From an uncultured Coriobacteriaceae bacterium (GTDB lineage: Bacteria > Actinomycetota > Coriobacteriia > Coriobacteriales > Atopobiaceae): 64,000 nt of DNA. The notes under the pieces were generated by a model, which was given only the letters and a program-made list of their open reading frames with translations, did no database searches and was not told the DNA's origin. The DNA lies in the NCBI GenBank assembly GCA_902790135.1, contig CADAQM010000008.1:62001-126000 (forward strand), read 5' to 3'. Below are positions 2 to 61,950 of the stretch, piece by piece (the stretch's first letter is position 1; the number at the start of each line of letters is the position of its first letter). A program made the position numbers and the translations under genes.

Positions 2-724
2 CTGACCGACGGCCTCGCGGAGCATTGCGACGAGCGCCTGAGCGACGTGTGCCTCGCCTTTGCCGAGACGCTCGTGCGCATGGCTGGGGGAGTGATCGCG
101 GGCATCAAGCCCTCCGCCATCTTCAGCATCCCCATGCGCGCCTACTGCGTGGGGCGCTGGCGCCAGTTGGAGCGTCGGGCCCTGGATGAGGCGCTCCGGG
201 CCTATGCACGCGTGCTCCCCAGCTACGGCGTGGCGCTTGCGGTGCTCTACCGCAACGACCGTCGCGTCTACCTGATGATCTGGCGTCCCGACATGATTGA
301 GGTGGCGCTTGCGGACGCGGATGCCGCTGCCATCCTGCAGCAGGAGGGCTACGCGTCGGCGTCTGCGGACGAGCAGGTCATGGAGCTGCGGCGCCGTCTG
401 GCTGCGTACTACCGCCGCGACGAGGGTGCGGAGTTCCCGCACGAGATCGGACTCTTTCTGGGCTACCCGCCCGAGGACGTGCGCGGCTTCATGGCGGGGG
501 AGGAGGCGACCTGCGTCGGTCCGTGGTGTGCCTATGGCGACGCCGAGGCGGCGCAGCGCCGATTTGATGCACTGGAGAGGCAGGAGCGTCGCTGCCGCAA
601 GGCGCTTTGCGCGGGGAGAGTCGCTCGGTGCGCTCTTCTCCATGAGCGGCATCGCATGAGTTTTGCAACAGAGCCCGCACAAGGGAAGGCGGGCCAAAAC
701 CTATCCAAGGAGGATATGACATGA
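2..724 (+). CDS. DUF3793 family protein, 5' end outside window
   Basis: The reading frame is open from the first bases of the window, so the true start is upstream; an internal GTG at 47 is not convincing. The visible protein contains AGIKPSAIFSI near its start and a C-terminal half with HEIGLFLGYPPEDVRGF, which I recognise as the DUF3793 pattern. The family has no established biochemical role, but in anaerobic Firmicutes and Actinobacteria it is commonly found next to small flavodoxins, as here. Its stop overlaps the flavodoxin start (ATGA at 721-724), and the flavodoxin ribosome-binding site AAGGAGG lies inside its 3' end, so the two are translationally coupled. The last ~30 residues are polar and look like run-on sequence. 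A role in iron or redox metabolism is only inferred from context. Confidence 0.8.
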   Translation: MTDGLAEHCDERLSDVCLAFAETLVRMAGGVIAGIKPSAIFSIPMRAYCVGRWRQLERRALDEALRAYARVLPSYGVALAVLYRNDRRVYLMIWRPDMIEVALADADAAAILQQEGYASASADEQVMELRRRLAAYYRRDEGAEFPHEIGLFLGYPPEDVRGFMAGEEATCVGPWCAYGDAEAAQRRFDALERQERRCRKALCAGRVARCALLHERHRMSFATEPAQGKAGQNLSKEDMT

Positions 725-1119
725 GCGTTGCAGTTGTGTATTGGTCCCAGACCGGCAACACCGAGGCCATGGCCAACATTCTGGCCGATGCGGCATCTGG
801 CGAGGCCATCAACTGGGAGGATTTCTCTGCCGATAAGTGCGCCGATTACGACGCGTTCGCATTCGGTTGTCCCGCAATGGGCGCCGAGGAGCTCGACCCG
901 GATTTCGAGGAGCTCTGGGACGCCTGCAAGGGCGAGCTGGGTGACAAGCCCGTCGTGCTGTTCGGCTCTTATGACTGGGGCACGGGCGAGTGGATGGACA
1001 CTTGGAAGGACGCTGCCGAGGGCGACGGCGTCAACGTCGTGGAGACCGTCATCGCCAACCTCGAGCCCGACGACGAGGCCGAGGAGGCCCTGAAGGTTGC
1101 TGCCGCCAAGCTGGCCTAG
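721..1119 (+). CDS. Flavodoxin (short-chain)
   Basis: This 132-residue protein begins MSVAVVYWSQTGNTEAMA; the SQTGNT segment (residues 9-14) is the FMN phosphate-binding loop of flavodoxins. Later segments (AFGCPAMGAEELD and LFGSYDWGTGEWMD) match the two loops that pack on the isoalloxazine ring. Flavodoxins are cytoplasmic one-electron carriers that replace ferredoxin when iron is scarce. The length is typical of short-chain flavodoxins. The start is fixed by AAGGAGG upstream and by the 4-base overlap with the DUF3793 gene. A strong terminator follows directly, so the two genes probably form the end of one transcript. Confidence 0.93.
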   Translation: MSVAVVYWSQTGNTEAMANILADAASGEAINWEDFSADKCADYDAFAFGCPAMGAEELDPDFEELWDACKGELGDKPVVLFGSYDWGTGEWMDTWKDAAEGDGVNVVETVIANLEPDDEAEEALKVAAAKLA

Positions 1120-1144
1120 TCTCGCCTATAGCTTATAGGGAGCA

Positions 1145-1185
1145 AAGCGCGCCCCAGCGGACTGCATCCGCTGGGGCGCGCTTTT
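1145..1185 (+). terminator. Rho-independent terminator after the flavodoxin gene
   Basis: A 16-bp perfect stem (AAGCGCGCCCCAGCGG paired with its complement at 1168-1183) encloses a 7-base loop and ends in a short T run. Confidence 0.9.
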
Positions 1186-1198
1186 GGATGAGAGCTAC

Positions 1199-1566
1199 TG
1201 GTTCGCTGGCAGAGCCGCAACGGGCATCGGTTCCGTCTCCAGCGACGGACGTGTCACCACCGGTCCGCTGCCAGAGCCGCAAGGCTGGTTCGTTCCGTCC
1301 CGTTCGACGGACCAGTCGCCACCGGTCCGCTCTGGGAGCCGCAACGGGCATCGGTTCCGTCCCCAGCGACGGACGGGTCGCCACTGGTCCGCCCCGGGAG
1401 CCGCAACGGGGCCCGGTTCCGTCCCCAGCGACGGACCGGTCGCCACTGGTCCGCTGGCAGAGCCGCAACGGGCATCGGTTCCGTCCCCAGCGACGGACGG
1501 GTCGCCACTGGTCCGTCCCGGGGGACGCAACGGGGCTGGTTCCGTCCCCGCCGACGGACGGGTGGC
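1199..1566. repeat. 62-bp GC-rich tandem repeat array A (6 units)
   Basis: The marker GCCGCAA recurs at 1214, 1276, 1338, 1400 and 1462, with a variant GACGCAA at 1524, i.e. every 62 bp exactly. Each unit carries TCCGTC-N6-GACGGA (6-bp hairpin), then a CGGAC...GTCCG inverted pair, then GAGCCGCAACGGG. The unit length is not a multiple of three and the unit lacks stop codons in most frames, so several overlapping open frames on both strands are artefacts. The array lies between the converging 3' ends of the flavodoxin and gpmA genes, inside their two terminators. The same unit forms a second array at 42879-43232. Confidence 0.95.
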
Positions 1567-1579
1567 TATCCTGCCCATG

Positions 1580-1610
1580 AAAACGCCCGCCCCTGGCGGG
1601 ACGGGCGTGC
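1580..1610 (-). terminator. Terminator of gpmA (minus strand)
   Basis: Read on the minus strand, ACGCCCG and CGGGCGT (1583-1589 and 1602-1608) form a stem followed by TTTT. A second GCCGCC/GGCGGC hairpin lies just before it at 1613-1636. Confidence 0.75.
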
Positions 1611-1653: not shown

Positions 1654-2421
1654 CTACTTCTTGGCCTTGCCCTGGTTGGCGACGGCGTCGATCTTGGCGG
1701 CGATGACCTCGGGGTCGCCAATGTAGTGCTTGTCGACGACGTTCCAGTCCTGGTCGAAGGTGTAGGACAGCGGCACGGCGGTCGGGATGTTGACCTCGAG
1801 GATCTCCTCCGGGGTGAGGTGCTCGAACATCATGACGAGGGAGCGCAGGCTGTTGCCGTGGGCGGCGATGAGGACGCGCTTGCCGGCCTTGAGCTGCGGG
1901 GCGATCTCGTCCTGGAAGTACGGCCATGCGCGGGCGATGCAGTCCTTCAGGCACTCGGTGTAGGGGAGCTGGTCCTTCATGGCAACGTCGCGGTACTCCT
2001 CGGCGATCTGGGCGCAGCGCTCGTCGCCGGGCTCGAGGGCCTTGGCGGGCACGTCGAAGGAGCGACGCCAGATCTTGACCTGCTCGTCACCGTACTTGGC
2101 AGCGGTCTCGGCCTTGTTCATGCCCTGCAGGGCGCCATAGTGACGCTCGTTGAGCTTCCAGGTCTTGATGACAGGCAGCCACTCGCGGTCCATCGCGAAC
2201 AGGACGTTGTTCAGGGTGTGGATGGCGCGCTTGAGGTAAGAGGTGTAGCAGATGTCGAAGTCGTAGCCGGCCTCCTTGAGGGCCTTGCCGCCGTCGAGGG
2301 CTTCCTGCACGCCAGCCTCAGAGAGATCCACGTCGGTCCAGCCAGTAAAGAGGTTTGCCTTGTTCCACTCGCTCTCGCCGTGACGGATGATAACAAGGTG
2401 CATCAGGTTGTCTTCGGCCAT
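1654..2421 (-). CDS. gpmA: 2,3-bisphosphoglycerate-dependent phosphoglycerate mutase
   Basis: The protein (255 residues) interconverts 3- and 2-phosphoglycerate in glycolysis and gluconeogenesis in the cytoplasm. It has the phosphohistidine motif [10 protein letters not shown] (His14), the dPGM segment [18 protein letters not shown], and the second active-site histidine in [10 protein letters not shown], so it is the cofactor-dependent histidine phosphatase type. The frame is open ~150 bp further upstream, but the start at 2421 is chosen because it has GAAAGGA seven bases upstream and gives the family's usual N-terminus. It is divergent from glnA, with a 297-bp gap between them. Confidence 0.97.
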
Positions 2422-41674: not shown

Positions 41675-42766
41675 GTGCCGGGGTCTTTCAAGAACATCAT
41701 CGACTACGTGTGGGAGCGCAAGGAGACGTTCGAAGAGCTGCCACTCAACCGAGTTGATAGCCTGGTGCTCTCGCAGTTGTGCTACTTCCAGCTTCCGACG
41801 GCGGCCGAAGACGCCTGGGGCTGGGAGGGGCTGCCGATTCACGACCTATGGCGCTCCGACTGGCTCGACGAGATGTGCGGCCACATGTATGACCCTCCTG
41901 GTGCGAGAAGGCTCGCGTCAGCCCTTGCGGCCAGCCCGCGCTATCGTGACGTCCGGATCTTCTGCTACATCATGCAGATTGACCGCATCAATGAGATGCA
42001 GTTCTCTGCGATGTCCTTCGCGCTCACGCCACAGGACACCTACATCGCCTTCCGCGGCACCGACAACACGATTGTCGGCTGGAAGGAGAACCTCAACATG
42101 GCCTTTCAGGTGCAGGTGCCCTCGCAGGCGCAAGGCCTGCGCTACTTCGAGCGCATCGCCTCGCAGGTGCCGGGGCGCCTCTGGACCGGTGGCCATTCAA
42201 AGGGCGGCAACATCGCCATCTACGTGGGCATGACCTGTGCCCACGAGCTGCGTCGGCGCCTGCAGTGCTGCTTCTCGCACGACGGTCCCGGCTTCACTTC
42301 TACCACCCTCGACGACCTCGAGGACATCGGGATCAGCGTCCCTATCGACAAGACCGTGCCTAAATCCTCGATCTTTGGGATGCTCTTCGAGCAGGACAAC
42401 CAGGATGCCCGCGTGGTGCGCAGCATCAGCAGCGGCTTTGCGCAGCACGACCCGCTGAGCTGGGAAGTCGATGGCTGCGACTTCGTGATCGAGGAGCGCA
42501 TGGGCAGGACCGCAAGCTATGTGGACACCTCGCTCAATGCGTGGATTCGACGGGCGTCGCTGCAGGAGCGGCGGCAGTTTGTGGACGCGATCTTTGCCAT
42601 CATGACCGCCGGTGACGAGAAGTACACCCACGACCTGCGCACCAACTGGCGCGTCACCGCACCGCGCATGGTACGCGCCGCGCTCGACCTCGACCCCGAG
42701 GTGCGCGATGTGCTCGTGCAAGAGGTGCTCGAGCTGGTCAAGGAGCTTGCGCCAGGCGGCGAGTGA
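41675..42766 (+). CDS. Mbeg1-like (DUF2974) alpha/beta-hydrolase
   Basis: The 363-residue protein has the FRGTD strand (TYIAFRGTDNTIVGWKENLNMAF) and the nucleophile elbow GGHSKGGNIA with its Ser, then a later Asp/His-containing region (SHDGPGF). These mark DUF2974, a lipase-like family of gut bacteria. No signal peptide is present, so it should act in the cytoplasm; the substrate is unknown. GTG start with GGAGGG upstream, 41 bases after uvrB. It is followed by the second 62-bp array rather than a standard terminator. Confidence 0.85.
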   Translation: MPGSFKNIIDYVWERKETFEELPLNRVDSLVLSQLCYFQLPTAAEDAWGWEGLPIHDLWRSDWLDEMCGHMYDPPGARRLASALAASPRYRDVRIFCYIMQIDRINEMQFSAMSFALTPQDTYIAFRGTDNTIVGWKENLNMAFQVQVPSQAQGLRYFERIASQVPGRLWTGGHSKGGNIAIYVGMTCAHELRRRLQCCFSHDGPGFTSTTLDDLEDIGISVPIDKTVPKSSIFGMLFEQDNQDARVVRSISSGFAQHDPLSWEVDGCDFVIEERMGRTASYVDTSLNAWIRRASLQERRQFVDAIFAIMTAGDEKYTHDLRTNWRVTAPRMVRAALDLDPEVRDVLVQEVLELVKELAPGGE

Positions 42767-42878
42767 TGGCTCTGATAGCCGAGGCATAGGTTGTGTAGGC
42801 TGGCGGTTGGCATGGGGCTGCTAGGCGCTCTGCCGTGCCCTCGCCTTATGAGGTTGGGAGGAGGGGGCGTGGCTCGCG

Positions 42879-43232
42879 TTCCGTCCCCGGTGACGGACGG
42901 GTCGCAACGGGTCCGCTCGCAGAGCCGCAACGGGGCCAGGTTCCGTCCCCGGCGACGGACGGGTCGCAACGGGTCCGCTCTCAGAGCCGCAACGGGGCCC
43001 GGTTCCGTCCCCGGCGACGGACGGGTCGCCACAGGTCCGCTCGCAGAGCCGCAACGGCGCCCGGTTCCGTCCCCGGCGACGGACGGGTCGCAACGGGTCC
43101 GCTCGCAGAGCCGCAACAGTCCCCGGTTCCGTCCCAATCCGCGGACGGGTCGCCACAGGTCCGCTCGCAGAGCCGCAACGGCGCCCGGTTCTGTCCCCAG
43201 CGACGGACGGGTCGCAACGGGTCCGCTCCGAG
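42879..43232. repeat. 62-bp GC-rich tandem repeat array B (5 full units plus partial)
   Basis: GCCGCAA recurs at 42924, 42986, 43048, 43110 and 43172, again exactly 62 bp apart. A decayed sixth unit is at the right edge (GAGAGACAC). The unit matches array A at 1199-1566: GGTTCCGTCCCC, GACGGACGGGTCGC, GGTCCGCT, CAGAGCCGCAACGG. Units 3 and 5 share GCCACAGG and CGCCCGG while 1, 2, 4 and 6 have GCAACGGG, suggesting duplication of blocks. The array lies between converging genes and no other terminator is obvious there. Confidence 0.95.
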
Positions 43233-43283: not shown

Positions 43284-44939
43284 CTACAGACCGAGAACCC
43301 ACTCGGCGCAGCGGATGCCATCGGCGGCAGCCGACATGATGCCTCCCGCATACCCGGCGCCTTCGCCGCAGGGGTAGAGGCCCAGCGTTCTGACCGCCTG
43401 ACCATCGCTTCCGCGCGTGACGCGCACGGGCGAGCTCGAGCGCGTCTCCACGCCCGTGAGCACGGCATCTGCCACGTCAAAGCCGCGCAGACGCCGTCCC
43501 ATGAGAGGGATGGCTGCGCGCAGGGTCTCGCTCACGTAGTCGGGTAGGCAGGGGTCGACCTTGCCCCATGCCACACCGCGGGGGTAGGTGGGGACCACCG
43601 ATCCGCCTGCGTTGGAGGCCACATCCTGCAAGAAGTCTCCCACGAGCTGCGCGGGTGCCACGTAGCCGCCTCCTCCGGCAGCATAGGCGGCCTTCTCGCA
43701 GCTACGCTGTAGCGCAAGGCCAGCAAGCACGTCGTCGCCAGGCAGGTCGTCGGGAAAGACGTTGGCCAGAAGTCCCGCGTTGGCATTGGTCCCGGCGCGG
43801 TCGGAGAGGCTCATGCCGTTGGTAACCACGCCTTCGGGTTCGCTCGCGGCGGCAACCACGTATCCGCCCGGGCACATGCAGAAGCTGAAGGCGCCGCGTC
43901 CGGAGGGCAGGTGCACAGCCAACTTGTAAAGGGCAGCCCCCAATGAAGGGTGTCCTGCGAAGTGCCCATACTGGCTGCGGTCTATGTCTGCCTGCAGGTG
44001 CTCGATGCGCACGCCCATCGCAAAGGTCTTGCGCTCGAGCATGACGTCCCGACGCTTGAGCAGCTCGAAGACGTCACGCGCAGAGTGTCCGCAGGCGATG
44101 ACCAGCTGCGAGCAGCCCAGCTGCTCCTCGCGCAGGATTCCCGTGGCGCGGTCGTGGGACACGAGCGTGACCGACTGCACGCGTCCGCCAGTGACGTCGA
44201 GGTCGCACATGCGCGTGCGCAGGCGCACCTCGCCTCCGAGCTCGGCGATGCGGGCGAGTACGTTCTCGACCACGCGCGGCAGGATGTCGCTTCCCACGTG
44301 GGGCTTTGCGTCCCAGAGGATACGCCTGGGCGCGCCTGCCTCCACCAGCGTCTCGAGGACGAGGCGATGGAAGGGGCTCTTGGTTCCGGTGGAGAGCTTG
44401 CCGTCCGAGAAGGTGCCCGCCCCGCCGAGGCCAAACTGGATGTTGCTCTCGGGGTCAAGCACGCCCGTCTCGTTGAAGGTGGCGATTGCGCGCGTGCGCT
44501 CGCGCGAGCCGTCACCGCGCTCGACCAGGATCGGCGCGCGCCCGGCCTCCGCTAGGGCAAGCGCGCAAAAGAGGCCCGCGCATCCAGCGCCCACCACCAC
44601 GGGTCGGTCGTCGGCGGGCAGCACGGTCGTTCTCTTCCAGGCGACGGGCTTTGCCTCGACGGTCTTGAGCTGCTTGCCCACACGCCACTTTGCGGCCTTC
44701 TTGAGCAGGGTGCGCTCGGCATTCTGGCCGCCGCGCAGCGTGATACGGGCGGTGAAGAGCAGCTGCACCTCGTTCTTCTTGCGGGCATCGATCGAGCGTT
44801 TGCGCAGCTCAAGCGATGCGAGGTCGTCGGGTGCGAGCCGCAGCATCCTCAGCACCGCCTGACGCACGGCGCGCAGGTCGGCGTCGTCCGTGCCGTCCAG
44901 GCGCTCAGGCGCCACGCGTATGCCCGTTATCTCGATCAT
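43284..44939 (-). CDS. FAD-dependent oxidoreductase (COG2509-like)
   Basis: The 551-residue protein has an N-terminal ~105-residue basic domain, then a Rossmann dinucleotide motif VVVGAGCAGLFCALALAEAG, GLGGAGTFSDGKLSTG, VIACGHSARDVFELL and a C-terminal FAD contact GEGAGYAGGIMSAAADGI. This layout fits the uncharacterised FAD-dependent dehydrogenases of anaerobes. Its ATG overlaps the stop of the next flavoprotein gene upstream (ATGA at 44936-44939 on the minus strand), so both are translationally coupled. The substrate is unknown. Confidence 0.85.
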   Translation of the reverse strand: MIEITGIRVAPERLDGTDDADLRAVRQAVLRMLRLAPDDLASLELRKRSIDARKKNEVQLLFTARITLRGGQNAERTLLKKAAKWRVGKQLKTVEAKPVAWKRTTVLPADDRPVVVGAGCAGLFCALALAEAGRAPILVERGDGSRERTRAIATFNETGVLDPESNIQFGLGGAGTFSDGKLSTGTKSPFHRLVLETLVEAGAPRRILWDAKPHVGSDILPRVVENVLARIAELGGEVRLRTRMCDLDVTGGRVQSVTLVSHDRATGILREEQLGCSQLVIACGHSARDVFELLKRRDVMLERKTFAMGVRIEHLQADIDRSQYGHFAGHPSLGAALYKLAVHLPSGRGAFSFCMCPGGYVVAAASEPEGVVTNGMSLSDRAGTNANAGLLANVFPDDLPGDDVLAGLALQRSCEKAAYAAGGGGYVAPAQLVGDFLQDVASNAGGSVVPTYPRGVAWGKVDPCLPDYVSETLRAAIPLMGRRLRGFDVADAVLTGVETRSSSPVRVTRGSDGQAVRTLGLYPCGEGAGYAGGIMSAAADGIRCAEWVLGL

Positions 44940-46282
44940 GAGAGGGCCCACCTTGCCGCAGCCGTGCCGGCCACCATGCCGCTCTTCCAGGCCCAGGCGA
45001 GGTTGAAGCCGCCACAGTCGGCGTCCACGTCGAGGGCCTCGCCGCAGGCGTAGAGCCAGGGCAGCTCGTGGTGGGCCAGGGTCGTGGGGTTAAACTGGTC
45101 GTTGGCAAGGCCACCGCGGGTGACCTGCGCCTTCTCGGTCTCGGCGGGACCCTTCACCACAAAGGGCAGGCGCTTGACCAGCATCATCAGCGTCTCGGAG
45201 TCGCTCTGGGGCTCCTTGCGCTCGTCCCAGTCGATGTGCCAGCGCCTGCGGGCCAGGTGCTCCAGCTGCTCTGCGATGGCAGGATCGAGCACGCCGTCCA
45301 GGCAACCCGCCTCGAAGTCTCCCGAGGCAAAGGGGTCGACCAGCTGGCGCAGCTGCGACTCGTTGAGGTCAGGCGCGAGGTCGAGCTCCACGAGGTCGCC
45401 CGTCCCGGCCCGCCGCGACAGGTTGAATGACACGATGCCCGATATCCCATAGCTGCGCAGGAGCACCTCTCCGCGCTCCTGGTAGCTGGGAAAGAGGCTG
45501 TCCTTCTTGGTGAGACGGGCCAGTACGTGCGCGCGCCGGCCGTCAAGTACGGAGAGGGGAGAGTCCTCGCAGGCGAGGGGGCACAGCACGGGCGTGCGCT
45601 CGACGAGGGAGAGTCCCAGCTCGCCCATGAAGGGCAGCGGCTCTCCGCCGCTGGCGAGCACGACCGCGCGGGCACCAGGTAGGTAGAGCGCGCCGTTCTC
45701 GCTGAGGGGCAGGGTGTGGGCCACCTCGGCCATCCCGGCGGGTTGGGTGGTGCTGGTCTCCGGACGGTAGTGCACGGCATCGTCTATCTCGCCCAGCCAC
45801 TCCGCCTTGATCCAGCTTGCGCTCTGGAACTCGCGCGCCGGGGCCAGAACGACGCCTGCCTTGCGCGCTCGTGCCAAAAGCACGTTGCGCACGCTCGCGG
45901 CCTGGCGACTCATCGGGTAGAGGCGGTCGTCCTCCAGGCACCACCGCATGCCGCAGTCGCGGAAGAATCCCAGCACGTCATCAAGCCATCGCGCACCGCA
46001 GACCTCCGCGACGAAGGACGGGTCGTTGAAGCGACGCGCGTCCAGTTGAACGTTGGCAAAGTTGCAGCGTCCGGCACCCGTGGCCAGAATCGAGCGTCCA
46101 CACTCGAGGTCGCGCTCCAGCACCACCACCGACGCGCCCTCCTCGGCAGCGCAAATGGCGGCAGTGAGGCCGGCCGCGCCTCCGCCTATGACCATGACGT
46201 CGCAGTCGCTTGGAGTCTTGACGTCTGCCGCGGCCTGCAGCAGGCGTTCCCTTTGGGCCGCGCGCGATTCCTTCTTTGCCAT
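44936..46282 (-). CDS. HI0933/BaiN-like flavoprotein
   Basis: The 448-residue protein shows VMVIGGGAAGLTAAICAAEEG for FAD binding, the family signature ILATGAGRCNFAN, VLASGG, and a C-terminal GEALDVDADCGGFNLAWAW segment. HI0933-type flavoproteins include bile-acid oxidoreductase BaiN and others of unknown substrate. A hydrophobic or steroid-like substrate is possible in a gut bacterium but is only speculation here. It is the first of two coupled flavoprotein genes; thrH lies 8 bases upstream, so the flavoproteins may be read from the thr operon. Confidence 0.88.
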   Translation of the reverse strand: MAKKESRAAQRERLLQAAADVKTPSDCDVMVIGGGAAGLTAAICAAEEGASVVVLERDLECGRSILATGAGRCNFANVQLDARRFNDPSFVAEVCGARWLDDVLGFFRDCGMRWCLEDDRLYPMSRQAASVRNVLLARARKAGVVLAPAREFQSASWIKAEWLGEIDDAVHYRPETSTTQPAGMAEVAHTLPLSENGALYLPGARAVVLASGGEPLPFMGELGLSLVERTPVLCPLACEDSPLSVLDGRRAHVLARLTKKDSLFPSYQERGEVLLRSYGISGIVSFNLSRRAGTGDLVELDLAPDLNESQLRQLVDPFASGDFEAGCLDGVLDPAIAEQLEHLARRRWHIDWDERKEPQSDSETLMMLVKRLPFVVKGPAETEKAQVTRGGLANDQFNPTTLAHHELPWLYACGEALDVDADCGGFNLAWAWKSGMVAGTAAARWALS

Positions 46283-61320: not shown

Positions 61321-61950
61321 CAAAACCCACCCGCTACGCGAGTGGATGGCAAAAGGCGCCACACGACAGGAGGCCCTCCCCCTAGGATGGTGATTGTTCA
61401 GGTCGCCAGCCCCTAGGGGGAAGGTGAAAGCCATGGCCCAGAAGGCCAACAGCCTCTCGCACCGGACCTGGGGGAGATCTTCAGGTCGCTTTGCGACTGG
61501 AAGGGGGTCGAGATATTCGAGGGGCACCTGATGCCCGACCACGTCCAAATGCTGGTGAGCATGCCTCCCAAGCTGAGCGGTCGTCCTTTATGGGGTACCT
61601 GAAGGGCAAGAGCTCGCTCATGATGTTCGACTGGCACGCGAACCTCAAGTACAAGTTCGGCAACAGGAAGTTCTGGGCGGAGGGCTACTACGTGTCGACC
61701 GTCGGCCTGAACGAGGCCACGATCGCCAAGTACATCCGCGAGCAGGAGAGGGCCGACATCGCCCTGGACAGGCTGGGCGTCAAGGAGTACGAGGACCCGT
61801 TTAGCAGGTAACCGCGCGGAGCCGGTTCCACCGGCACGCCACGAGTCAAGGGGCTATTGGGCCTGAACGAAGTGAGGGCCAGGGACTTGAGTCCCTGGCC
61901 CGGGGCCCTTAGGGTTACACCCTAAACCACCCGCTATGCGGGTGGTTCTG
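61321..61950 (+). mobile_element. IS200-type insertion element, inactivated
   Basis: The left end CCACCCGCTACGCGAGTGG (61326-61344 region) and right end CCACCCGCTATGCGGGTGG (61927-61945) are the same subterminal hairpin, as in the IS200/IS605 family, which has no inverted terminal repeats. Near the left end, TCCCCCTAG (61377-61385) pairs with CTAGGGGGA (61413-61421), a typical leader hairpin of IS200 that limits transposase expression. At the right a GGCCAGGGACT hairpin (61877-61900) and TTAGGGT/ACCCTAA repeat follow. The transposase frame is broken. Exact ends are uncertain by several bases. Confidence 0.8.
61433..61811 (+). pseudogene. tnpA: Degenerate TnpA (IS200-type Y1 transposase)
   Basis: The ATG at 61433 opens MAQKANSLSH, the usual IS200 start, but ~30 residues that should follow (TKWMCKYHIVF...) are deleted. 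In another frame the sequence continues DLGEIFRSLCDWKGVEIFEG HLMPDHVQMLVSMPPKLS; a one-base loss near 61570-61580 then shifts the frame to SFMGYLKGKSSLMMF, and it ends with GYYVSTVGLNEATIAKYIREQ and EYEDPFSR. The catalytic HUH motif reads HVQ instead of HVH, so even the domain could not cut DNA. The Tyr helix is intact. Confidence 0.85.

Follow-up and report, generated by a model that had tools for sequence, protein, structure and literature searches.

Tandem 62-bp arrays of a dispersed BIME-like palindrome in rumen Atopobiaceae: a candidate phased DNA-protein array at gene ends

The stretch of DNA analysed here (64,000 nucleotides, hereafter the window) carries near its start an array of six repeats, array A, which spans positions 1197-1563 and is recovered by TRF with a period of 62 bp and 5.9 copies. 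It occupies the gap between a flavodoxin gene (721-1119, forward strand) and a converging phosphoglycerate mutase-like gene (His_Phos_1; 1654-2421, reverse strand, with its stop at 1654). A terminator-like hairpin stands on either side, namely an 18-bp hairpin at 1144-1184 (forward), which is likely the flavodoxin terminator, and that of the converging gene at 1586-1600 (reverse); the placement of the array between two converging genes, as given in the original prediction, is borne out. The first unit, a 58-bp palindrome at 1197-1254, is followed on the same strand (forward) by units at 1259-1316, 1321-1378, 1383-1440 and 1445-1502, and by a sixth of 57 bp, with a 1-bp deletion, at 1507-1563. 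The marker GCCGCAA falls at 1214, 1276, 1338, 1400 and 1462, and the inverted repeat TCCGTC-N6-GACGGA starts at 1232, 1294, 1356, 1418, 1480 and 1541, the last of these lying 1 bp short of its expected place owing to the base missing from unit six. Hence the 62-bp period and the tandem layout stand as first described, but not the exactness of the period in all six units; likewise, the hairpin assigned to each unit is present at six positions, but is just one of several dyads. The earlier exclusion of a CRISPR array and of a coding repeat also holds: the inter-unit spacer is usually 4 bp and CGCC-like, with no spacers of foreign origin, and the repeat in array A is non-coding.

The window contains a second array of the same 62-bp family, array B (42878-43228, forward), with five full 58-bp units (42907-43212) and partial units at both ends. 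A Mbeg1-like hydrolase gene (41675-42766, forward) lies upstream of it, and a gene for a FAD-dependent oxidoreductase (43284-44951, reverse) converges on it. No terminator-like hairpin was detected flanking array B, and the pattern of an intrinsic terminator, a GC hairpin followed by a T-run, occurs within neither array.

An alignment of 85 units from this genome defines the repeat as a 58-bp imperfect palindrome plus a 4-bp spacer. Each unit comprises four half-sites of alternating orientation, GGTCCG (4-9), CGSAAC (20-25), GTTCCG (34-39) and CGGACC (50-55), which are nearly invariant, while the linkers between them vary in sequence and hardly at all in length. Nearly all the aligned units are 58 bp long, a length held across about 25% divergence. 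The half-sites are spaced by 30-32 bp, or 3 turns of the helix, and the units by 62 bp, or 6 turns. Units are alike without being identical, as had been noted, with 85% identity within loci and 75% between them. Nearly all units inside one array share the same orientation, and with respect to genes units point either way. A strict half-unit (monomer) pattern, run on 914 kb of contigs, matched 70 times within arrays and never outside, and a relaxed one 121 times within arrays and twice outside, both times in coding sequence; as free half-units were not found, the smallest free-standing entity is the whole 58-bp palindrome.

The spaced unit pattern matched 71+54 times in the genome, its reversed control not once, and the array is therefore not a product of chance. 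This genome (G000) has about 25 loci of the 62-bp family, including 22 arrays with 92 units in the 914 kb of contigs and one unit elsewhere, at intergenic sites. A fixed-spacing pattern scan of 84,980 species genomes returned matches only in rumen-type assemblies of this group, and a profile search, both strands counted, gave 159 matches in this genome, 96 in G015, 19 in G013, 7 in G002 and 2 in G014. No convincing match to the 58-bp unit was obtained in the other genera of Atopobiaceae searched with the profile; the unit is limited to rumen Atopobiaceae assemblies of one genus, and its presence in independent assemblies of other species speaks against an artefact of a single assembly. Plasmid, phage and viral-contig collections held no match to the unit, leaving such an origin unsupported, and no account of these arrays turned up in the literature searches.

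Comparison with G015 reveals a rapid turnover of copy number. About 13 arrays are orthologous between the two genomes but vary in how many units they contain, 9 versus 1 and 6 versus 1 being examples; single units occur, and copy number at orthologous loci ranges from 1 to 9 across species. Seven G015 arrays are missing at the orthologous sites in this genome, and at the site of array A G015 retains both genes and the hairpins, with the array reduced to a short remnant, ACTGGTCCGCC. Together with the higher identity within loci, these differences, absences and the remnant establish that single units are gained or lost at sites and that arrays expand or shrink locally. Four of the seven vacant sites hold another palindrome, GTGACACACTAACTCC...GGAGTTAGTGTGTCAC, which at one of them is present as a half only. 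This second palindrome family is mostly intergenic (G000 C3:76247, C12:42917, C29:2168 and 2218, C8:14171, C43:7785 and others). Elsewhere, a 58-bp unit in G013 (L235 2985-3042) is matched in this genome by a RAYT-type palindrome (G000 C3:21751-21823), which sits between apparent remnants of the unit's ends.

Such turnover, the greater likeness of units within loci, and the failure to find a counterpart to arrays A and B when the orthologous sites of other species were inspected would all suit a neutral satellite, generated by slippage and gene conversion in tolerant gaps, whose near-helical periods reflect coincidence or common descent. We consider this origin very doubtful, given half-sites that stay nearly invariant while the linkers vary, the 58-bp length kept despite sequence divergence, and dispersal to some 35 loci, which goes beyond what slippage alone would achieve.

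The original prediction had offered a passive mobile repeat served by a transposase elsewhere. No transposase could be tied to the unit: in the loci searched, no copy of it adjoins a Y1_Tnp gene, one negligible match aside, and the RAYT/Y1_Tnp genes inspected carry their own, different flanking inverted repeats, so that a RAYT as linked mobiliser is unsupported. In G006, G007, G009 and G014, some of which are incomplete assemblies, there was no Y1_Tnp match. Within the window, an IS200-like Y1 transposase match at about 61456-61745 is split over two frames, and this copy is therefore probably broken; it was rejected as a source of the unit, its flanking hairpins CCACCCGC...GCGGGTGG looking unrelated. 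A RAYT-like gene on another contig (L053 1468-2232, G000 C10) is flanked by GGGAAACAGGGGACAGGCACCTGT repeats that are likewise unrelated to the 62-bp unit. A selfish repeat of the REPIN/BIME type, moved by a RAYT or another HUH transposase, could nonetheless explain the geometry as one of transposase recognition, with the arrays lacking any host function. The inverted pairs of hairpin-like monomers, their extragenic location and 3'-end bias, the differences in presence and copy number, and the existence of RAYT-like genes in the genus are all in keeping with it. We nevertheless hold it to be unlikely: besides the missing association with Y1_Tnp genes, G014, G007 and G009 carry the unit or analogous arrays despite giving no Y1_Tnp match, and free monomers were not found, while REP families commonly include singlets (PMC3733652).

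The arrays are not randomly placed with respect to gene orientation. With orthologs merged by hand to 33 loci, and with genes taken from codon-usage predictions, convergent gaps hold 13 of the 33 loci while making up 15% of all intergenic gaps (P 5e-4), an enrichment without restriction to such gaps. Divergent gaps, with 3 of 33 loci, look under-used, though not significantly (P 0.10), and the C17 locus was probably classed as 'divergent' through an error in gene calling, because its ortholog is tandem.

On both sides of several arrays a stop codon is no more than 35 nt away, so that a further terminator would hardly fit, and this is what one would expect of an RNA-level element, in which arrays in 3' untranslated regions form hairpins that stop transcription or protect mRNA ends. 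In the same direction, folding surpasses that of shuffled RNA in many arrays (median z about -4), some of the array-less sites in one species hold another palindrome, and covariation is slight but present in the small monomer hairpins (11 to 17 of 500 shuffles for three of five measures). Against this, covariation in the long hairpin is below that of shuffles (5 doubly changed cells versus 14.8), and its pairs are often non-complementary (19:40 in 40/48 and 22:37 in 35/48). For the transcribed strand, the outer stem prefers G-U to A-C, but the inner stem has more A-C than G-U. In folding, arrays A and B themselves show a modest advantage over shuffles or none, orientation is mixed, no Rfam match was obtained, no T-run terminator pattern was detected in array B and array A has separate hairpins on both sides. 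An action at the level of RNA accordingly appears distinctly improbable.

A different regularity emerges from the spacing of units on double-stranded DNA. In the 62-bp family the spacing is 62 almost everywhere, with deviations of 73 (three independent loci), 82 (one), 83 (two), 90 (once), and 61 and 63 (1-bp indels). Most changes of spacer thus amount to +11 or +20/21 bp, and several of these spacers are unrelated in sequence; the spacing of 90 arises from an inserted partial unit (+28), and one unit of locus L212 has about 5 bp inserted within it, both out of phase. Sister species possess intergenic arrays unrelated in sequence, with periods of 52 (two families in G009, and G017 and G007) or 42 (G008). 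Four unrelated 52-bp arrays are seen at G007 L322, G017 L324 and G009 L247, two being in the G009 gap beside the ortholog of an array-A gene, and in G007 all 29 of 29 same-strand spacings equal 52. In G008, the 42-bp intergenic arrays at L312, L314, L336 and L337 (GGAAAGGnAAAnnnnGAnTTGTG, 247 pattern matches in the genome) run as forward copies and then inverted ones, with spacings of 42 or its multiples, apart from one of 52 and one of 95 that spans a run of N. A further unrelated tandem array, in G015 (L219 7161-7391), has a period of 63.

V-tests gave P about 0.003 for the inserted lengths with the exceptions kept, a figure that includes two 10-bp G008 inserts, one of them taken from a match list (94 = 42+52), and P about 0.0005 for the six family periods, or about 0.01 for the three distinct periods, exact periods within one species being possibly inherited by common descent. 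These statistics are post hoc, on a small sample with few independent events and two out-of-phase inserts. The RAYT-linked repeats of the genus, as a contrast set, show a weak tendency towards helical multiples (P about 0.03-0.05). Altogether, the geometry of the arrays looks to be set by the DNA helix, and this favours a DNA-bound protein over an RNA fold because a fixed length is combined with free linkers, spacer changes are turn-sized and long-hairpin covariation is missing. The whole-turn periods of the sister species likewise suggest a DNA-binding protein on their arrays.

We therefore tentatively read array A, at close to even confidence, as a tandem cluster of a dispersed BIME-like palindrome that forms a phased DNA-protein array, probably an insulator or roadblock. 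Single units appear at intergenic sites and vanish from them, and local tandem duplication expands or contracts arrays, which accounts for the fast change of unit number between species seen by synteny. The property under constraint would be geometry on double-stranded DNA, with half-sites, units and most spacer changes in whole turns, such that a putative sequence-specific protein could bind on one face of the array. The bound array would probably act as an insulator or roadblock for transcription or supercoiling, a role proposed from their preference for the 3' ends of genes and for convergent gaps. Of the options originally listed, a protein-binding array has the best support, although no candidate protein for the 58-bp unit was identified. 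Sister species appear to use other motifs with 42- or 52-bp periods, and it is conceivable, if rather improbable, that the genus as a whole uses fast-evolving, species-specific arrays of 4, 5 or 6 turns per unit, each with a co-evolving binder, as gene-end insulators. Were this true, it would constitute a bacterial counterpart of rapidly evolving satellite/binder pairs. If the phasing holds across a full survey, explanations from DNA geometry would become separable from those invoking RNA hairpins, and the unit would offer a concrete bait for isolating its binder.

Among known systems, the closest in organisation are the BIME and REP clusters of enterobacteria and pseudomonads, which are likewise short extragenic palindromes of alternating orientation forming tandem clusters in gaps downstream of genes. 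BIMEs are bound by gyrase, IHF or Pol I. The 62-bp family, for which neither single REPs nor an associated RAYT were found, differs further in that it keeps to a period of 62 bp, changes its spacers mostly by turn-sized steps and is restricted to one genus. An integron attC site was also considered as a reading; in the 58-bp unit the AAC/GTT boxes are innermost rather than outermost. REPs are extragenic, clustered and prefer gaps downstream of genes (PMC3733652). REPINs, or REP doublets (PMC3116915), share with the 58-bp unit a smallest dispersed entity that is a doublet of inverted hairpin-like monomers, but the unit occurs mostly in tandem arrays, with no cognate RAYT found and no GTAG-type tag recognised. 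CGTC-tagged REPs are also dispersed palindromes without a dedicated transposase; for the most part they form head-head dimers whose CGTC tag is unpaired and whose stems measure 8-9 bp, and they occur mainly in alpha-Proteobacteria (PMC3733652), a tag and stem layout to which the unit was not matched. The RAYT-flanking terminal inverted repeats (PMC3733652) are palindromic intergenic repeats of the same genomes, but they adjoin Y1 transposase genes, often have a 33-bp period in this genus, and are unrelated in sequence to the 62-bp unit. Thus, the element has the many short palindromic extragenic copies typical of REPs and REPINs, but fails as a member of that class on RAYT association, no RAYT being flanked by the repeat, and on dispersed single monomers; in its clusters of alternating inverted palindromic units it is BIME-like in organisation. 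The usual explanation of dispersed palindromes in bacteria is that they are REPs mobilised by a RAYT, and against that background the 62-bp family, with no linked RAYT, stands apart by its constant length and mostly turn-sized spacer changes.
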